From NCBI GenBank assembly GCA_014193115.1, contig BJHQ01000001.1, forward strand, positions 124,001 to 188,000: a stretch of 64,000 nucleotides of DNA. Reading direction: 5' to 3'. Source of the stretch: Planctomycetota bacterium (GTDB lineage Bacteria > Planctomycetota > UBA11346). Made by a program: the position numbers and the translations under genes. The notes beneath the pieces were generated by a model. That model was not told the origin of the DNA, ran no database searches, and was given only the letters and a program-made list of their open reading frames with translations. Positions 10,082 to 57,290 of the stretch are shown piece after piece (the first letter of the stretch is position 1; each line of letters starts with the position of its first letter).

Positions 10082-10472
10082 AAGTGCCGTCCCCCGGAGC
10101 GCCGCTCCACCGGAGCGCCGCACTCCGTACGGCCAGATCTCGGAGCGCCGCACTCCGTGCTGCCCAGACCACCAGAGACGCTCTCCCCATGGCCACGGCG
10201 AATCATCGGCAGCGACTCCGGAACCCCGCTAGGCCATCACCAAGCCGCGCACAATAAAGCCGCATCAAGCCTGGGAGCGCCGAGCACCAGCTCGGCTAGG
10301 CATGGAGCGCCAGCTCGGCTTGAATGCAGTCGTTCCGCGAACTTGCACTCACCAGCCGCACGGAGTGCGGCGCCCCGGGCTCGACCTGGGAGCGCCGAGC
10401 GCCAGCTCGGCTTGGGTGGAGCCGTTCCGCGAACGTGCGTTCACCAGCCGCACGGAGTGCGGCGCTCCGAGT
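10082..10472. repeat. Interspersed palindromic repeats, families A and B
   Basis: The stretch between the PDZ gene and the LpoB-like gene holds family-A elements (core GCCGCACTCCGTGCGGC) near 10098, 10139, 10353 and 10446, in both orientations. Family-B elements (GAGCGCCGAGCGCCAGCTCG or close variants) lie near 10274, 10302 and 10390. A 90-bp-scale duplication is also visible: TCGTTCCGCGAACTTGCACTC near 10330 returns in altered form near 10423. I see no gene here. Confidence 0.85.
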
Positions 10473-26375: not shown

Positions 26376-26668
26376 CCAAGCCGAGCAGGCGCTCGTCACT
26401 ACGCGACAACCCGGAGCGCCGCACTCCGTGCGGCTGGTGAACTCCAGCGATGTGAAGTGCCCAGCCCAATCAAGCCGAGCAGGCGCTCGGCGCTCCCAGG
26501 CCACCCGGAGCGCCGCACTCTGTGCGGCTGGTGAGCTCCAGCGGCGTGAAGTGCCCAGCCCAATCAAGCCGAGCAGGCGCTCGTCACTACGCGACAACCC
26601 GGAGCGCCGCACTCCGTGCGGCTCATGAGCTCCAGTGGCGTGAAAAGCCCAACCAATTCAAGCCGAGC
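26376..26668. repeat. 94-bp-period array combining family A and family B palindromes
   Basis: CCGAGCAGGCGCTCG or its variants recur at about 26381, 26475, 26569 and 26663, an exact 94-bp period. Each unit also contains a family-A element (GGAGCGCCGCACTCCGTGCG) and a conserved connector (CCAGCGGCGTGAAGTGCCCA). The array sits directly upstream of ftsK (26239-26704) and contains no gene. Confidence 0.9.
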
Positions 26669-45448: not shown

Positions 45449-48016
45449 ATGGCCTCCCCCACCCCCGACCTCCAGCCGGGAATCACATTCGATCAGTACA
45501 CCCTCCGTCGCCGTCTCGGCGCTGGCGGCATGGGAGAGGTTTGGCTGGCGCTCGAATCGATCACTGGACGGGATGTCGCACTGAAGTTGATGGGCGGATT
45601 GAATGAACCGACCGCCGACCAGCGCAAGCGGTTTGCCCATGAGATCAGCCTGCTCGCGTCCCTAGACCATCCCAACATCGCGCTCTATGCCGGCCATGGC
45701 TGGTTCCACAACCGGCCTTATTTCGTGATGCAGGTGGTCGACGGACCATCGGTCGAGACGATCCTGAATAAACGAGGCCGACTCGATGAATCCCTGGCCT
45801 TGAGCATCGCCGTGCAGGCTTCGAGCGGCCTCGATCATGCGCACAAGAAAGCCGACGTCATCCACCGCGACCTGAAACCGGCCAACATGCTGGTGGATCG
45901 CCGGGGTCGGGCCGAGGTCGATGACCAGTCCCAGGTCAAGCTCATCGATTTCGGCCTGTCGCTCGGCCGGATGCGCGGCGAGAACGACCACATCTTCGGT
46001 TCCACCGACAAGCGCATCAGCCACTTCGACGAATCCCGGGTGGTGGTCGGTACGCCGCTCTACATCGCCCCGGAGCAGATCATCAAGGGCGACCGAATCG
46101 ACTTCCGCGCCGATATCTATGGCCTCGGCGCCACCCTGTACCACCTGCTCACCGGCCGGCCGCCGTTCCCGCTGGACGATGTCGAGGCCCTGCTCGAAGC
46201 CCACTGCAAAGCGCCGGTGCCCGATCCCGGCGATCTGGTTCCGGAACTCAAGCCGGCGACCCGGCAACTGGTCATGCGGGCCATGGCTAAACTGCCCGAC
46301 AGCCGTTTCGCCACCTGGGAGGCCTTCACCCGTTCGGCGCGCACCGCTTACAACGTGGCCACTGGCGGCCTGCGCTCACGACGGACCGACGTCGGTCACG
46401 ACTCCGGTGCATCCGCGACCCTCGCACCGCCGACCCGGACCCTGCACGGCCAGCCACGTACCACCGATCGGGTCGCCCGCACTCCGACCGACCAGGTCCA
46501 ACGCAAGACCAGCGGGCCGTTTCCGGTCCAGACCCCGACTGATCGGCGCAGCACCGGAACCCACCCGGCCATCGTGGCCAGCGAGACGCACCCCCAGCCG
46601 ATGACCGGCGCCACCATCCGGGAATCACCACCGAGCCGCGATCCCACCACCCGCCGGGCGTCCGGAGAAATCCCACCCGCGCTGACCGCCAGGACCGACC
46701 GCCGGGCCAGTGCCGGCGATCTGCCCCCCCAGGCGCGCACGCCGCCTCCCCCCCAGGCGCGCACGCCGGCGGCCGGACCTGGCGGTCAGGTGACCAAGAC
46801 CACTCGGACACCTCCCTCTGGCGCAGCCAGCGATCCTCCGGAGCTGCCGGACCTTCCGCCGCTGCCGGCGTCGATCCCGCCTGGCCCACAGGCAGTCCAA
46901 GGTCCGCAGAACCAGGTGCAAAATGGCATCCGGTCGCCTTCCGAGATCGCTGCCAGGCACCTGCCCCAACCAACCTCTGAACTGGTCGGCCGGCCGTCTG
47001 CCCTGGATCGCAACCGCGAAGAGAGCGGCGGCGTCGATGCTTTTTCCGCTCACGACCAGTTGGCTGACCAGGTCCAGGAAGTTGAGCAGGAACTCCTGTC
47101 TGACGAAGAGTCGGGATCCGAGGAATCCGGCCAGATCGACGATGTCCCGCTCGATGAGCTCCATGTGGGCCGACCGCCAGAGCCGATCCTGTCGGCCAGG
47201 CCGGTCGGAAGCCGCCAGCCGACACCCGCTGTACCGCCAGCGGTCCGGGCCCGGCCGGGGCCGGGGCCGCTGCCACTGCCGCCAGAACTGGCCAAGCCCC
47301 CGGTCCGGCCGCGGGATCTGCCGCCGGGATTCCCCTCCGGCACCGATCAAGCGAACGACGACAACCTGCGGCCTGAGCTCCCTACCGGTCCGCCGGTGCT
47401 GCCCGAGATCGTCGGCGTCAGCTCCCTCGGCATCGCCAGGCCGTCGGACGCGACGGTGTTCGGCGACCTGTCGTCCGGAGCCCGTCCGGCGGCGATCCTG
47501 CCGCCGCAGCAGCCATTGACGTCCCGTTCGCCGGCTCCGCCGCGTCAGCGGATGCCCATGACCCCGCCTGGATCCGCTCCCACCCTGACCCCGACCACGA
47601 CCCGGCACCGGCCGACGACGCCGACCGCGGCCGGCCGGACCGGCGGGCCGGCCACCCAGAGCGGTCCGACCATCCAGCGTGCGCCGGCCAACCAGAGTGG
47701 GCCGCCCAGGACGCCGCCGTCGGCGGCGGGCAATCCTCCGTCGACCCATCGTGGGACCCGGCGGCTCAGCGCTTCGCACCACGCGCCGAATCCGGCCGGG
47801 GAGATTCCGCCGGATGAGATCTCCGACGCCATCGCCAAGGCGGTACGCGAGACCGAACTGTTGGCCGAAGCCGGCCGGCAGTCGCGCATCGAGCGCCAGC
47901 GCAAGCAATCTGAGACGGATTTGACGCCGCCGGAGCCGCCGCCGGAAGGCGGTCTGACCGGTCGGATCAAAGGGCTGTGGTCCCGGCTGACCGGCCAGGA
48001 CGACACCAAGACCTGA
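45449..48016 (+). CDS. Serine/threonine protein kinase with long disordered tail
   Basis: An 855-aa Hanks-type kinase. The kinase domain (about 15-290) has glycine loop GAGGMGEVW, Lys46 (VALKLM), HRDLKPAN (Asp141), DFGLS (167-171) and VVGTPLYIAPEQ. A ~25-aa insert around ENDHIFGSTDKR precedes the activation segment. After about residue 300 come ~540 residues of Pro/Thr/Arg/Gly-rich, low-complexity sequence with an acidic patch (about 545-575: QEVEQELLSDEESGSEESGQ). A short amphipathic end (GRIKGLWSRLTGQ) follows. No transmembrane helix is seen, so it is probably soluble or membrane-peripheral. The tail may be a multi-site phosphorylation or docking region. Confidence 0.92.
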   Translation: MASPTPDLQPGITFDQYTLRRRLGAGGMGEVWLALESITGRDVALKLMGGLNEPTADQRKRFAHEISLLASLDHPNIALYAGHGWFHNRPYFVMQVVDGPSVETILNKRGRLDESLALSIAVQASSGLDHAHKKADVIHRDLKPANMLVDRRGRAEVDDQSQVKLIDFGLSLGRMRGENDHIFGSTDKRISHFDESRVVVGTPLYIAPEQIIKGDRIDFRADIYGLGATLYHLLTGRPPFPLDDVEALLEAHCKAPVPDPGDLVPELKPATRQLVMRAMAKLPDSRFATWEAFTRSARTAYNVATGGLRSRRTDVGHDSGASATLAPPTRTLHGQPRTTDRVARTPTDQVQRKTSGPFPVQTPTDRRSTGTHPAIVASETHPQPMTGATIRESPPSRDPTTRRASGEIPPALTARTDRRASAGDLPPQARTPPPPQARTPAAGPGGQVTKTTRTPPSGAASDPPELPDLPPLPASIPPGPQAVQGPQNQVQNGIRSPSEIAARHLPQPTSELVGRPSALDRNREESGGVDAFSAHDQLADQVQEVEQELLSDEESGSEESGQIDDVPLDELHVGRPPEPILSARPVGSRQPTPAVPPAVRARPGPGPLPLPPELAKPPVRPRDLPPGFPSGTDQANDDNLRPELPTGPPVLPEIVGVSSLGIARPSDATVFGDLSSGARPAAILPPQQPLTSRSPAPPRQRMPMTPPGSAPTLTPTTTRHRPTTPTAAGRTGGPATQSGPTIQRAPANQSGPPRTPPSAAGNPPSTHRGTRRLSASHHAPNPAGEIPPDEISDAIAKAVRETELLAEAGRQSRIERQRKQSETDLTPPEPPPEGGLTGRIKGLWSRLTGQDDTKT

Positions 48017-52129: not shown

Positions 52130-52153
52130 ATAAGTAAACATAGGTTTACTTAT
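52130..52153. promoter_or_regulatory. Perfect 10-bp-arm inverted repeat, likely operator or leader hairpin
   Basis: ATAAGTAAAC, four bases, then GTTTACTTAT. It is strikingly AT-rich for this DNA and lies directly before the start of the 200-aa barrel protein and across the stop codon of the ScpA fusion. The size and symmetry fit a dimeric repressor site, or an RNA hairpin over the initiation region. Confidence 0.55.
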
Positions 52154-55100
52154 CGGTCAAGGCCCAGGTCCGCAAACGCCCCGTGCGGTCGCTCCACGGA
52201 CTCGCTGACGGGATCGTTGCCAGGGCTTCGAACAGGGCGACGGGCGTGGTCGCGACCTCGCGCACCGGCAGCACAGCCTCAGCCCGATCGCCACCAGCGG
52301 TCAGCACCAACCGGTAGTCGCCAGGTGATCGACCAGCGATCCACTCGGTAAGCGGCACCGGCCACGAACGGGACAGGCCGTGTTCGGCGGGCTCGCAATC
52401 GCCCGGCTCGCCCACCACCAGCTGCGCCACCGTCGCACCAGCGGCATCCTGCAACTGCACCGTGGCGCCCGGCCAGCGGTGGGCCCGGGCGGCCAGGGCG
52501 CCGCCGCGGATCGCGATCCACAGCCCGCTGTCCCGGTGCGGTACAGCCACCGTCAGCGCCGCCGCCGCTGGCAAATCATCGAGTTTGGCTTCGGGATGGT
52601 CAGCTGGCCAAGCGGCCGCGACTGAGATCTGATAGGCCGTGCCGGGCACGAACGGACCGCGCAGCGCAAGGCCACCGCCCTCCTGCACCGCCTGGAACGG
52701 CACCGGTGGATCGATCCAGATCTGCTTGGCGATCACCTGCGGATCAGCGAAGGTCCCCGCGCACACCAGATGGACCGTGGGATCGCCGTGGGCAGGCGAG
52801 GCCGCGGCGACAGCGGTGGGCACCAGGCGATGGCCGGCGGCGATGGTGGCGCTCCAAGCAGTTTCCAGACCGATCGGTCCTGCGGCTCCGGCAAAACCGA
52901 CAGGAAGCGCCAGGGTGAGCGATCCGCGCGGCGATCCGTTGCTGGGCGGACGGAGATCCAGATCGATGGCGGCGGATTCCGCCGAGGTCACCGCGCTCGT
53001 CTGCCAGCCGCTGGCGCTGAGCCCCGCTGCCAAGCGGGCAGGCGACATCGGCTGGTTGGCGGCGATCCGCACCCGGGTAGCGCCATCGGCGGTAAAGCCG
53101 GTGACGGTCGCACTGCGCACGGCAAACAATTCGCCGCGCATCCGGTAGCAGAGATCCGTCGCCAGCCGGAATCCATCGGCGGTACGCACCGGATCGGCGG
53201 GCACCGTCACCGCGATCGGCGTCGCCAAAGGCCACGGTTGGCTCGGAGTGAACTCCGCTGTGGATCGATCAATCCAGCGCCAAGCGCCAGCGATGGCTGG
53301 CTCGAAACGCGCCGCCAATGGCGCCGGTTGCTCAATTTTTTCAGGAAGAATCGGCAGATTGAAGCGCAGGCGCACCGGCTGGCTGCCGCTGAGCACCGTG
53401 CCCTCGGCCGGCGGATCGATGGTCGTCAGCACCGCCCGCGGCGGAGACAGCAGCCACGTCGCGCCGACCCCGATCCCGGCCGCAGCGGCCAGGCCCGCGG
53501 CGAGCTGCCAGCGGCGGAGGTTTCGGGGAGGGGCGGGCATGGGTCGGAGTGCTGGCTGGGGTTGCGTCGTGGTGGCGGTGAATGGTGGAAGGGGATCGGG
53601 TGGTGGAGCCGCCCCCGGCGGCGGCGGATCCGGCGGCGGCTCGAGTGGATCCGGCAGCCGTGCTGCGGGCGGCGGCGAGGTCACAACCGGTGGCTCGCTG
53701 ACAACCGGCGGCTCGCTGATCTGAAGCGGCGCAATCGCAGGCGATTCGCTGACGTCGCTGGCTTCGCTGACTTCGCTGGCTTCGCTGGGCGATGTCGCTG
53801 TTGCGCCAGGCCGGACGGAGTCCGGCGCTCCGGGTTCGGCCTCCGGCGGTTCGGGTTCGGCCTCCGGCGCTCCGAGTTCGGCCTCCGGCGCTGCGAGCTC
53901 GGCCCTGGGAGCGCCGAGCGCCAGCTCGGCTTGGGTTGGCGAGCTGAGCGGTTGGATCAGCGAAGCGGGTTCCTCGCGATCGGCGAGACGCGGAACAACC
54001 GGCGGCTCGCTGATTTGAAGCGGCGCGATTCCAGACGATTCACTGACTTCGCTGAGCGATGTCGCTGGTGCCTTCGGCCGGACGGAGTCCGGCGCTCCGA
54101 GTTCGGCCTCGGCCTCGGCCTCGGCCCTGGGAGCGCCGAGCGCCAGCTCGGCTTGGGTTGGCGAGCTGAGCGGTTCGATCAGCGAAGCGGGTTCCTCGCG
54201 ATCGATGGGTCGTGGATCAACTGGTGGCTCGTTGATTTGAAGCGGCGCGATTCCAGACGATTCACTGGCATCGCTTGGCGATGTCGTTGGTGTGTCTGGC
54301 CGGACGGAGTCCGGCGCTCCGAGTTCGGCCTCGGCCTCGGCCTCGGCCCTGGGAGCGCCGAGCGCCAGCTCGGCTTGGGTTGGCGAACTGAGCGGTTGGA
54401 TCAGCGAAGTGGGCTCCTCGCGATCGGCGAGACGCGGAACAACCGGCGGCTCGTTGATTTGAAGCGGCGCGATTCCAGACGATTCACTGGCATCGCTTGG
54501 CGATGTCGTTGGTGTGTCTGGCCGGACGGAGTCCGGCGCTCCGAGTTCGGCCTCGGCCTCGGCCCTGGGAGCGCCGAGCGCCAGCTCGGCTTGGGTTGGC
54601 GAACTGAGCGGTTCGGTCAGCGAAGCTGGTTCCTCGCGATCGATGGGACGCGGATCAACCGATGGCTCGTTGAGACGAAGCGGCGCGATCGCAGGCGATT
54701 CGCTGACTTCGCTGGTTTCGCTGGCTTCGCTGGGCGATGTCGCTGGTGGGCCAGGCCGGACGGAGTCCGGCGCTCCGGGTTCGGCCTCCGGTGATCCGGC
54801 CTCGGCCTCGGCCCTGGGAGCGCCGAGCGCCAGCTCGGCTTGGGTTGGCGAGCTGAGCGGTTCGATCAGCGAAGCGGGTTCCTCGCGATCGATGGGTCGT
54901 GGATCAACTGGTGGCTCGTTGATTTGAAGCGGCGCGATTCCAGACGATTCACTGGCATCGCTTGGCGATGTCGTTGGTGTGTCTGGCCGGACGGAGTCCG
55001 GCGCTCCGAGTTCGGCCTCCGACGCTCCGAGTTCGGCCTCCGGCGCTGCGAGTTCGGTCTCCGGCGCTCCGAGTTCGGTCTCCGGCGCTCCGAGTTCGGT

Positions 55101-56942
55101 CCTGGGAGCGCCGAGCGCCAGCTCGGCTTGGGTAGAGTTGAGCGGTCCGATCAGCGAAGCGGGTTCCTCGCGATCGGTGGGACGCGGATCAACTGGTGGC
55201 TCGTTGATTTGAAGCGGCGCGATCTCAGGCGATTCGCTGGCATCGCTGGAAGATGTCGCTGGTGCCTTCGGCCCGGAGCGCCGCACTCCGTGCGGCCCAA
55301 ACCACAGCGCTTCCGGAACCACGAACAGCGGTGCAGCCAGCCCGGAGCGCCGCACTCTGTGCGGCCCGAACCACAGCGCCTTCGGCGCGGCGTCTGACCC
55401 ACCTCCTGCGGACAGGATAACCTCGGTTGGCAAGCTCGGTTCGGAGGGCTGCTGCGGCATTCCGGCCGATGGCTCCAGTGTCGCTGGCGCAACGACCACC
55501 GCAGGCTGTGTCGGCGCTGCGATTTCCGCCGTCGCTGTGCTTTCCGCCGTCGTGGCGCTTTCCGCCGGCACCATGATTTCCACCGGCGCCACGCTTTCCG
55601 CAGCCACCGCTGGCTGAGCCGTCGCCGTACTTTCCGCTGGCGCAGAGCTTTCAACCAACGCTTTGCTATCCGATACCGCAGCACTTTCTGTGGCCACTAC
55701 CAGCGCAGCGTTGTCCGTGGCTGCTGGCGGCTGCACCGTGGCCGCTGGCGGCTGTGCCGGGGCGGCAGGTTCCGCAGCAGGCTCCGCCACCGCCACGACC
55801 ACGGGCGGTGGTTCCGGCGGGCGCAATTCGGGATGCAGCGTGAACCAGTGGGCGAGGAACGCCGCCTCGGGATCCGCGGTCTGGCGCAGGAGCGGGTCGA
55901 TGGCGCAGGCGGCGTCCAGTTCGGCGACGAGTCGATCGACCTCGGTGAGCGGGGCCGGCTCCGGGTCGCTGGTGTCCTCGGTCTCGTCGGCTGGGGCTGG
56001 CGTCCAACCCGGCGGAGCGGTCCAGCTCGCCAACGGCAAAGAACGGCGCCGCCAGGGCAACGGCTCGGGCTCCAGTTTTTCGTCCACCGGCGGCAGGCGG
56101 TCGGACGGGTGACGATACCGCAGCTGGATCAGGCCGAACTGCTCCAGCTGGCGGATGCGCAGCAGGCGTTGGCGGGCGGCCTCCAGGCTGGCCATCAAGG
56201 TGGTGACGCGGTGGAGCGGGCTCGGCCGGTCGGCGTTCAGCTCGGCCAAGGTCGCTTCCTGGCGCCGGGCCAGCTCGGCTTCGAGTTCGGCGATGCGCAC
56301 GCCCAGCGGCAGGTCATCGACCGCGACGGTGCGTTCCCGGGCTCCGCCGATCCGCCGCATCAGCAGGTCGAAAGCGTCGAACAGCGCCCCGGCGTGCAGC
56401 TCGCCGAGATCCAGTCCGGCCAGCTCCTCGGGATCATCAGGCACCTGCTCGCGGAACTGGCGGCCGATCCGGCCGTGATGGTCATTCTCCAAGCGGTCGA
56501 GGATCTCGGCGGCGTCTTTAAAGGCGCGAAACGCGAGCAGCCGCCGGACCAGGTCGGCTCGGGGATCGTCGAAGCGCTCCTCTTCGGCGGCGCTGACCCG
56601 GCCTTCCGGGGGCGGGGCGATGGTCCGTGCCTTCAATTCCAGCAGTGAGGTCGCCATGACCAGGAAATCGCCGGCGATCTCCAGATCGAGATCGGCCCAG
56701 CCGTGGACCGCGGCGACGAACTGGTCGGCGATGTCGGCGATCGGGATGTCGTTGATGTCGACTTCGGCCCGCCGGACCAGGAACAGCAGCAGATCCAGGG
56801 GACCGCTGAACACATCAAGCGCGACGGTGCAGGCGAGGTCGCCGCCCTGGCCCAGTTCGCCGGCTTCACCGACCTCGGCGACGCTGCTGGATCCGCCCGG
56901 ATCAGCGGCGCCGGGGCTCAGGTTGTCCGGGCCGCCGGCCAT
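52146..56942 (-). CDS. scpA: ScpA (condensin kleisin) fused to repeat linker, membrane helix and A2M-like periplasmic domain
   Basis: A 1,598-aa frame. Residues 37-278 are a whole ScpA: N-terminal VALDVFSGPLDLLLFLVRRA and DINDIPIADIADQFV, MATSLLELKARTI, and a C-terminal winged helix (VTTLMASLEAARQRLLRIRQ). ScpA is usually ~250 aa, cytoplasmic, and closes the SMC ring. Here ~860 residues of Pro/Ala/Glu-rich linker follow, including six tandem units of 72-96 aa. One membrane helix lies at about 1143-1163 (WQLAAGLAAAAGIGVGATWL). The ~435-aa tail has a segment like the first domain of bacterial alpha-2-macroglobulins (VRLRFNLPILPEK, GAWRWIDRSTAEFTPSQPWP) but no thioester region. Start ATG 56942 is uncertain. 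No scpB is adjacent. Two fused genes or a genuine fusion are both possible; the frame is open throughout. Confidence 0.8.
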   Translation of the reverse strand: MAGGPDNLSPGAADPGGSSSVAEVGEAGELGQGGDLACTVALDVFSGPLDLLLFLVRRAEVDINDIPIADIADQFVAAVHGWADLDLEIAGDFLVMATSLLELKARTIAPPPEGRVSAAEEERFDDPRADLVRRLLAFRAFKDAAEILDRLENDHHGRIGRQFREQVPDDPEELAGLDLGELHAGALFDAFDLLMRRIGGARERTVAVDDLPLGVRIAELEAELARRQEATLAELNADRPSPLHRVTTLMASLEAARQRLLRIRQLEQFGLIQLRYRHPSDRLPPVDEKLEPEPLPWRRRSLPLASWTAPPGWTPAPADETEDTSDPEPAPLTEVDRLVAELDAACAIDPLLRQTADPEAAFLAHWFTLHPELRPPEPPPVVVAVAEPAAEPAAPAQPPAATVQPPAATDNAALVVATESAAVSDSKALVESSAPAESTATAQPAVAAESVAPVEIMVPAESATTAESTATAEIAAPTQPAVVVAPATLEPSAGMPQQPSEPSLPTEVILSAGGGSDAAPKALWFGPHRVRRSGLAAPLFVVPEALWFGPHGVRRSGPKAPATSSSDASESPEIAPLQINEPPVDPRPTDREEPASLIGPLNSTQAELALGAPRTELGAPETELGAPETELAAPEAELGASEAELGAPDSVRPDTPTTSPSDASESSGIAPLQINEPPVDPRPIDREEPASLIEPLSSPTQAELALGAPRAEAEAGSPEAEPGAPDSVRPGPPATSPSEASETSEVSESPAIAPLRLNEPSVDPRPIDREEPASLTEPLSSPTQAELALGAPRAEAEAELGAPDSVRPDTPTTSPSDASESSGIAPLQINEPPVVPRLADREEPTSLIQPLSSPTQAELALGAPRAEAEAEAELGAPDSVRPDTPTTSPSDASESSGIAPLQINEPPVDPRPIDREEPASLIEPLSSPTQAELALGAPRAEAEAEAELGAPDSVRPKAPATSLSEVSESSGIAPLQISEPPVVPRLADREEPASLIQPLSSPTQAELALGAPRAELAAPEAELGAPEAEPEPPEAEPGAPDSVRPGATATSPSEASEVSEASDVSESPAIAPLQISEPPVVSEPPVVTSPPPAARLPDPLEPPPDPPPPGAAPPPDPLPPFTATTTQPQPALRPMPAPPRNLRRWQLAAGLAAAAGIGVGATWLLSPPRAVLTTIDPPAEGTVLSGSQPVRLRFNLPILPEKIEQPAPLAARFEPAIAGAWRWIDRSTAEFTPSQPWPLATPIAVTVPADPVRTADGFRLATDLCYRMRGELFAVRSATVTGFTADGATRVRIAANQPMSPARLAAGLSASGWQTSAVTSAESAAIDLDLRPPSNGSPRGSLTLALPVGFAGAAGPIGLETAWSATIAAGHRLVPTAVAAASPAHGDPTVHLVCAGTFADPQVIAKQIWIDPPVPFQAVQEGGGLALRGPFVPGTAYQISVAAAWPADHPEAKLDDLPAAAALTVAVPHRDSGLWIAIRGGALAARAHRWPGATVQLQDAAGATVAQLVVGEPGDCEPAEHGLSRSWPVPLTEWIAGRSPGDYRLVLTAGGDRAEAVLPVREVATTPVALFEALATIPSASPWSDRTGRLRTWALTDK
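53909..55145. repeat. In-frame tandem repeats built on family-B palindromes inside the ScpA fusion
   Basis: The element CCGAGCGCCAGCTCGGCTTG recurs six times. Intervals between copies are 222, 222, 216, 249 and 288 bp, all divisible by three. It is read on the minus strand as TQAELALGAPR. Family-A elements at about 55275 and 55341 are read as GPHGVRRSG-type peptides. The DNA elements are the same as those in intergenic regions. Confidence 0.92.
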
Positions 56943-57149
56943 GGCGGTATCTGTAGGGACCACGGACTGGGGGCCAGGGGCCAGGGCCAGGGCCTGGGGC
57001 CAAGGCCAGAGGTTAGTGGCCAACGGGCCGTGGTGCGCATCGCCCTGCGATTGCCTGGAATCGGGAATCGGCGCACGATCCAAAAAGCGAAGTTCATCAA
57101 AATTTGTGCGTGATGCTCGGTCTGGATCCGATCGACACCGCAGGATCAC

Positions 57150-57290
57150 AGCATAGACGACCATGATTGAGGAATGAAAATAATACTATCACGATAGTCG
57201 TATGAATTCTATTCGATTTCTATTACCACGTCTGATGTTCCCGGTTGACTTGCGGAATAAATCGTCAAGATGTGAACACGAACCACGGTG
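57150..57290. other. AT-rich region upstream of ilvB
   Basis: Between the ScpA fusion and ilvB (56943-57354), the first part is a CAGGGCCAGGGCC-like low-complexity tract (about 56965-57010). The second is markedly AT-rich and includes the small palindrome ACTATC-AC-GATAGT (about 57183). Divergent promoters are expected here, but I see no pair of boxes convincing enough to mark. No T-box or other riboswitch pattern was recognised. Confidence 0.45.

Follow-up and report, generated by a model that had tools for sequence, protein, structure and literature searches.

A probable membrane-anchored ScpA kleisin, beside or in place of the soluble form, in a small class of Planctomycetota

The prevailing view is that SMC complexes move freely along DNA. 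Where bacterial chromosomes are known to be linked to the membrane, other proteins make the link (PMC8379921, PMC11500499). RocS of Streptococcus pneumoniae links DNA to the membrane for chromosome segregation, but it does so with an amphipathic helix and its own DNA-binding domain and is not an SMC subunit (PMC11500499). Origin tethers based on ParB (PopZ, HubP and RacA/DivIVA) also attach the chromosome to the membrane or the pole, but act through ParB or origin proteins and not through the SMC kleisin (PMC8379921). Attachment of bacterial chromosomes to the membrane is not known other than through proteins of this kind, such as ParB or RocS, and our search of the open-access literature (kleisin, ScpA, membrane tethering and planctomycete SMC/A2M) found no membrane-anchored kleisin. 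The ScpA proteins of bacterial Smc-ScpAB (PF02616; structures 3w6j, 4i98, 5h66 and 5xg3) are soluble and about 250 aa long.

The scpA gene described here lies in a window of 64,000 nucleotides, by which we mean the whole stretch of DNA analysed (Planctomycetota bacterium, assembly GCA_014193115.1, contig BJHQ01000001.1, positions 124,001 to 188,000). Like known ScpAs, its product has a complete N-terminal helical domain and winged helix; unlike them, it adds a linker of ~770 aa, a predicted membrane helix and a predicted extracytoplasmic domain. An initial annotation of the window had claimed that one uninterrupted frame at 52146-56942 holds a complete ScpA, a linker, one helix and a tail, and this held by frame, Pfam and hydropathy. 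The open frame reaches back without interruption to an ATG at 57164 (52146-57164, minus strand, 1,672 codons); we preferred, as the annotation had, the start at 56942 (M75 of the 1,672-aa frame), because the ScpAs of relatives start at the equivalent place (MPADEVN, MPEGPDG and MPEGQDA). Residues are given below in the numbering of either the 1,672-aa frame or the 1,598-aa protein that starts at M75. The parts of the gene, in window coordinates, are as follows.

52146..56942, minus strand: whole gene for the putative membrane-anchored ScpA, 1,598 aa from the ATG at 56942
56121..56780, minus strand: ScpA kleisin domain (Pfam SMC_ScpA, complete; N-terminal helical domain and C-terminal winged helix), from Pfam and fold matches
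55845..55943, minus strand: conserved helical motif ..EQRFLRELEE.. after the kleisin, from alignment, common to soluble and membrane forms in the class
53505..55844, minus strand: low-complexity Pro/Ala/Glu/Ser linker, ~770 aa, from composition and lengths in nine proteins
53863..55019, minus strand: 222-bp tandem array within the linker, from copy spacings
55275..55365, plus strand: two copies, within the linker, of the genome-wide palindromic repeat GGAGCGCCGCACTCCGTGCGGC
53538..53540, minus strand: internal ATG (M1209), 12 residues ahead of the helix
53448..53504, minus strand: single predicted transmembrane helix LAAGLAAAAGIGVGATWLL, positive side N-terminal, from hydropathy and charge
52149..53441, minus strand: predicted extracytoplasmic tail, homologous to the N-terminal region (before bMG3) of bacterial alpha-2-macroglobulins (A2Ms), from profile searches
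53157..53429, minus strand: Big_5-like domain, the first of Ig type in the tail, from a match that narrowly misses the curated cut-off (E = 3e-4)

The kleisin part of the protein is intact. Pfam SMC_ScpA (PF02616) matched residues 129-348 of the frame (55-274 of the 1,598-aa protein) over model positions 1-229 of 232 (E = 1.2e-24), a match that clears the cut-off and upholds the complete ScpA placed at residues 37-278 by the initial annotation. In an AlphaFold model built with 32 named relatives, confidence was close to 90 across most of the N-terminal domain and reached ~90 or higher for the winged helix. Model comparison matched the N-terminal helical domain, of the type that binds the SMC neck and ScpB, to ScpA of the ScpAB core (3w6j_A and 4i98_A), and the winged helix to ScpA on the SMC head (5h66_C; rmsd 1.5 over 70 columns, target TM-score 0.87), with a further resemblance to the C-terminus of cohesin Scc1. 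A sequence profile of the kleisin also found ScpA structure chains (3w6j at E = 3.7e-55). Both SMC-contact domains are thereby retained, and beyond them a class-specific helical motif near residues 408-440 (frame numbering) occurs in soluble ScpAs as well. The window's genome (G000; 5.25 Mb in 36 contigs, 94% complete) encodes one ScpA, one ScpB (C5) and one SMC-length frame (C21), so that both partners of ScpA are present, and also ParB. That the long ScpA assembles with SMC and ScpB is inferred from sequence alone, without protein-level data.

Only one convincing helix was found, at residues 1221-1239 (frame numbering; Kyte-Doolittle 1.75), with four Lys or Arg in the 15 residues before it and one after. 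Each of nine long proteins has a single predicted helix, preceded by 2-4 such residues and followed by 0-2. Topology was read from hydropathy and charge alone. The hydrophobicity of the window's helix is no more than moderate (Hessa-type sum +1.4), and the helices at loci L033 and L041 are weaker still. The helix and its positive-inside bias meet the criteria for a single-pass inner-membrane protein with its N-terminus inside; the insertion itself is a prediction.

The initial annotation had likened the tail to the first domains of bacterial A2Ms and reported it to be without thioester and bait regions, and both statements held. Five other complete tails align to the window's 431-residue tail at 28-38% identity, and a profile of six tails found bona fide full-length A2Ms within the class (one in G021 and another in G001; E-values in the class of 5e-41 and 3e-35) as well as dozens of frames of 1,600-2,200 aa in the phylum. 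The G021 protein is an A2M of 1,811 aa with bMG3, MG2, bMG5, bait-region, A2M and bMG10 domains; the tail profile matched it at about residues 55-459, and bMG3 begins at 472. As in the fusion, the matching region of full-length A2Ms comes right after an N-terminal signal anchor. Unlike bacterial A2Ms (PF11974, PF01835, PF07703, PF00207 and PF17973), the window's protein stops just before bMG3, and no MG2, bait-region, A2M, thioester or bMG10 part was found in it, so the tail cannot trap proteases and we rejected the idea of a partial, active A2M. The fused tails, which end at the protein C-terminus, split from ten A2Ms at 98/95 in a tree; so clean a separation fits one fusion, and the simplest account is a single event in which a duplicated scpA was probably fused to the first part of an A2M gene. 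PF00207 has no match in the window's genome, which lacks an A2M proper. Domain evidence within the tail was weaker: the Big_5 match was sub-threshold in the window (residues 1246-1336, E = 3e-4) and reached 2.4e-8 in the relative at L032, a profile search of solved structures returned only Ig domains of L,D-transpeptidases (E ~1e-4), and the single-sequence AlphaFold model had a pLDDT of 41 and was not used.

We compared the gene with relatives in a class sample of 23 genomes, all from one family of Planctomycetota and represented by draft, mostly metagenome-derived assemblies (one of four publicly named contigs is JACDEN010000340.1, Planctomycetota bacterium MGR_bin361). Long-frame ScpAs occur in eleven other genomes. 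Eight are assembled to the stop codon, and all eight show the same order of ScpA, linker and single helix; the other three are cut short in the linker where their contigs end, and in two of these genomes (G005 and G022) a tail lies at the end of another contig. A member of the long clade in G018 is truncated soon after ScpA. Homologous tails are present in five of the eight assembled relatives, in addition to the two on separate contigs. At the base of the long clade, the proteins of G011, G014 and G017 have the helix followed by a different tail of 190-230 aa. Because ScpA, linker and helix are common to all members and the tails differ, anchoring appears to matter more than the A2M domain, and it is membrane anchoring that is likely to be the constant feature of long ScpAs. 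The annotation's picture of an A2M-like domain as the tether is refined accordingly. Its broader claim that ScpA is tied to the membrane is supported by the conserved architecture, the intact kleisin fold and the tail homology, with the actual holding at the membrane inferred.

The linker varies in length and keeps its composition. In the window it is 19% Pro, 17% Ala and 12% Glu, with essentially no Cys or Trp; it spans 337-595 aa in the eight assembled relatives and 337-769 aa with the window included. Variation of more than twofold with composition kept is what a spacer would show. Repeat copies in the window's linker are spaced by 222, 222, 216, 249 and 288 bp, each a multiple of three, as expected if selection keeps the frame, and the array leaves the exact linker length in G000 uncertain.

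Outside the class, a helix after ScpA is missing from all 76 ScpAs retrieved from other phyla and classes, and a search for a similar fusion at ~30 other Planctomycetota loci likewise found no helix there. As a separate observation, an scpA elsewhere in the Planctomycetota (G049, L002:1441-3645) appears to be fused in frame to a MurD-like ligase, recognised by eye, in a protein of 735 aa.

The long gene is a duplicate that replaced the soluble one, a refinement to the initial annotation. In a tree of kleisin domains, the long forms make up one clade (97/94) nested among soluble ScpAs of ~400 aa, and both forms coexist in four genomes (G005, G015, G017 and G022). Soluble scpA adjoins ispH in six genomes, and also recQ where the contig reaches and recQ was found (order recQ-ispH-scpA); the long genes share no common neighbourhood. 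The nesting, together with a conserved soluble locus and no conserved long one, identifies the soluble copy as ancestral and the long form as a relocated duplicate. Relatives with separate scpA and membrane-protein genes, which the annotation had named as grounds for refutation, were looked for and not seen. Nor was a separate membrane-tail gene seen beside soluble scpA, whose neighbours are ispH and recQ.

The ispH gene of the window's genome lies on a contig of 354 kb, and neither scpA nor recQ occurs within ~6 kb of it; with this genome included, scpA is absent beside an assembled ispH in eight genomes (G000, G001, G013, G021, G018, G002, G014 and G003). In G011 a short remnant of soluble scpA, its frame broken, immediately follows ispH and precedes a tRNA-like sequence (L169:3040-3300); G017, the genus mate of G011, has an intact soluble gene. 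Absence at ispH and a remnant in genomes with the long form indicate that the soluble copy was lost more than once. A soluble scpA could sit in the missing 6% of the G000 assembly, though the old locus is assembled without one. Separately, one 90%-complete genome of the class (G002) has ScpB and SMC and no ScpA match, for which an assembly gap or a loss is possible.

We consider it likely that soluble ScpA gave way to a membrane-anchored kleisin paralogue, which holds Smc-ScpAB at the inner membrane by a flexible tether, the tethering in the cell being an inference. Fusion, intact kleisin, helix with charge bias, tail homology, duplication and loss of the soluble copy are shown at the level of sequence; membrane insertion, assembly with SMC and ScpB and any effect on chromosome position are inferred. 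By this account, scpA would have been duplicated inside one small class of Planctomycetota, and the duplicate would have acquired a single signal-anchor helix and, ahead of it, a long disordered linker; in one lineage, helix and tail would derive from the start of an A2M gene. Loss of soluble scpA would have followed, both in the ancestor from which the window's lineage descends and independently in other lineages, so that the anchored protein would be the only ScpA left beside a single SMC and a single ScpB. Established structures put the winged helix of ScpA on the SMC head. The anchored ScpA would close the SMC ring as usual, with its N-terminal domain on the SMC neck, its winged helix on the SMC head and ScpB in the middle. 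The chain leaving the winged helix would reach the inner membrane through the flexible linker, so that the complex stays near and the ring can move, and SMC would load on and translocate DNA while its tie keeps it no more than tens of nanometres from the membrane; a further contact, in the envelope, may come from the extracytoplasmic domain. Against this reading stand the absence of protein-level data, the moderate hydrophobicity of the helix, a tail without a usable model and a Met before the helix that leaves room for a second product. A bolder version, towards which we lean only slightly, is that the only kleisin in the cell is an integral membrane protein and that every Smc-ScpAB would act from the inner membrane, coupled through the same chain to the extracytoplasmic space.

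The alternative that survives best, which we consider unlikely, is that one chain is cut by a protease in the linker to give a normal soluble ScpA and a membrane-bound A2M-like piece, with SMC untethered or tethered only until cleavage. In its favour, every member has a long, disordered linker of simple composition, as is typical of protease-sensitive designs. Against it, the fused frame and the helix are kept through deep divergence and in lineages with different tails; moreover, were the soluble part all that counted, one would expect a broken fusion or a surviving soluble copy, yet that copy was lost. Protein processing could still separate the two halves.

We think it very unlikely that the long paralogue has left condensin and is now an envelope or signalling protein that retains the kleisin fold. 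Four genomes do keep a separate soluble ScpA alongside it, and long-clade members have their own variants in the alignment (KAR, versus KSR in soluble forms), but both SMC-contact domains are intact, and several genomes, including G000, have no other ScpA and still encode SMC and ScpB.

Also very unlikely is the production of two proteins from one frame, the full-length chain and a short helix-and-tail protein from an internal Met. A Met lies shortly before the helix in all eight A2M-tailed proteins (the window's and those at L032, L033, L037, L039, L044, L146 and L147), at 6-14 residues in the six that were measured, and in none of the three members with other tails; pooled linker Met frequency gives an expectation of ~18% per protein for a 25-residue stretch. 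Against two products, no Shine-Dalgarno sequence, -10-like sequence or internal promoter was seen before this ATG, and the Met may be a relic of the A2M start codon, an internal start also remaining possible. An artefact, namely misassembly or an scpA whose lost stop lets it run into a decayed A2M gene (the alternative raised by the initial annotation), could draw on the long open frames of high-GC DNA and on the linker repeats, but is all but excluded and rejected in its read-through form by the same fusion in independent genomes, with homologous tails kept in frame in distant relatives and every repeat spacing a multiple of three.

Returning to the anchored kleisin, we regard it as a variant of Smc-ScpAB and not as a machine of a different kind. 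If true, a kleisin that is part of the membrane would be a natural tethered loop-extrusion machine, with the SMC ring working while fixed. The class also offers a natural experiment, in that it contains soluble-only, both-forms and membrane-only genomes, including one with a decaying soluble gene. Planctomycetota lack FtsZ, and we found no match to it in five genomes of the class; chromosome placement and division without FtsZ is a question that an anchored ScpA would make testable.

The linker is partly built from genome-wide palindromic repeats. The repeat GGAGCGCCGCACTCCGTGCGGC has 284 clustered copies in the genome at up to one mismatch, compared with 0 for the reversed control, and its sites in the window lie at 2524-2851, 10112-10468, 26413-26622 and 55275-55365. 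Six further copies inside the scpA linker are compensated variants (GGAGCGCCGGACTCCGTCCGGC), and a companion element, CCGAGCTGGCGCTCGGCGCTCC, occurs there six times as an exact match.

Two minor observations concern the surroundings of the gene. In the window and its relatives, the start codon of scpA is often preceded, at a distance of only ~7-15 bases, by a TANNNT hexamer, and no Shine-Dalgarno sequence was seen, a pattern as if the transcripts were leaderless. Near scpA, the window also encodes a serine/threonine kinase-like protein with a long Pro-rich tail (45449-48016, recognised by eye); at L039 the gene immediately upstream of the long scpA encodes a kinase confirmed by Pfam, and L045 has a homologous frame.
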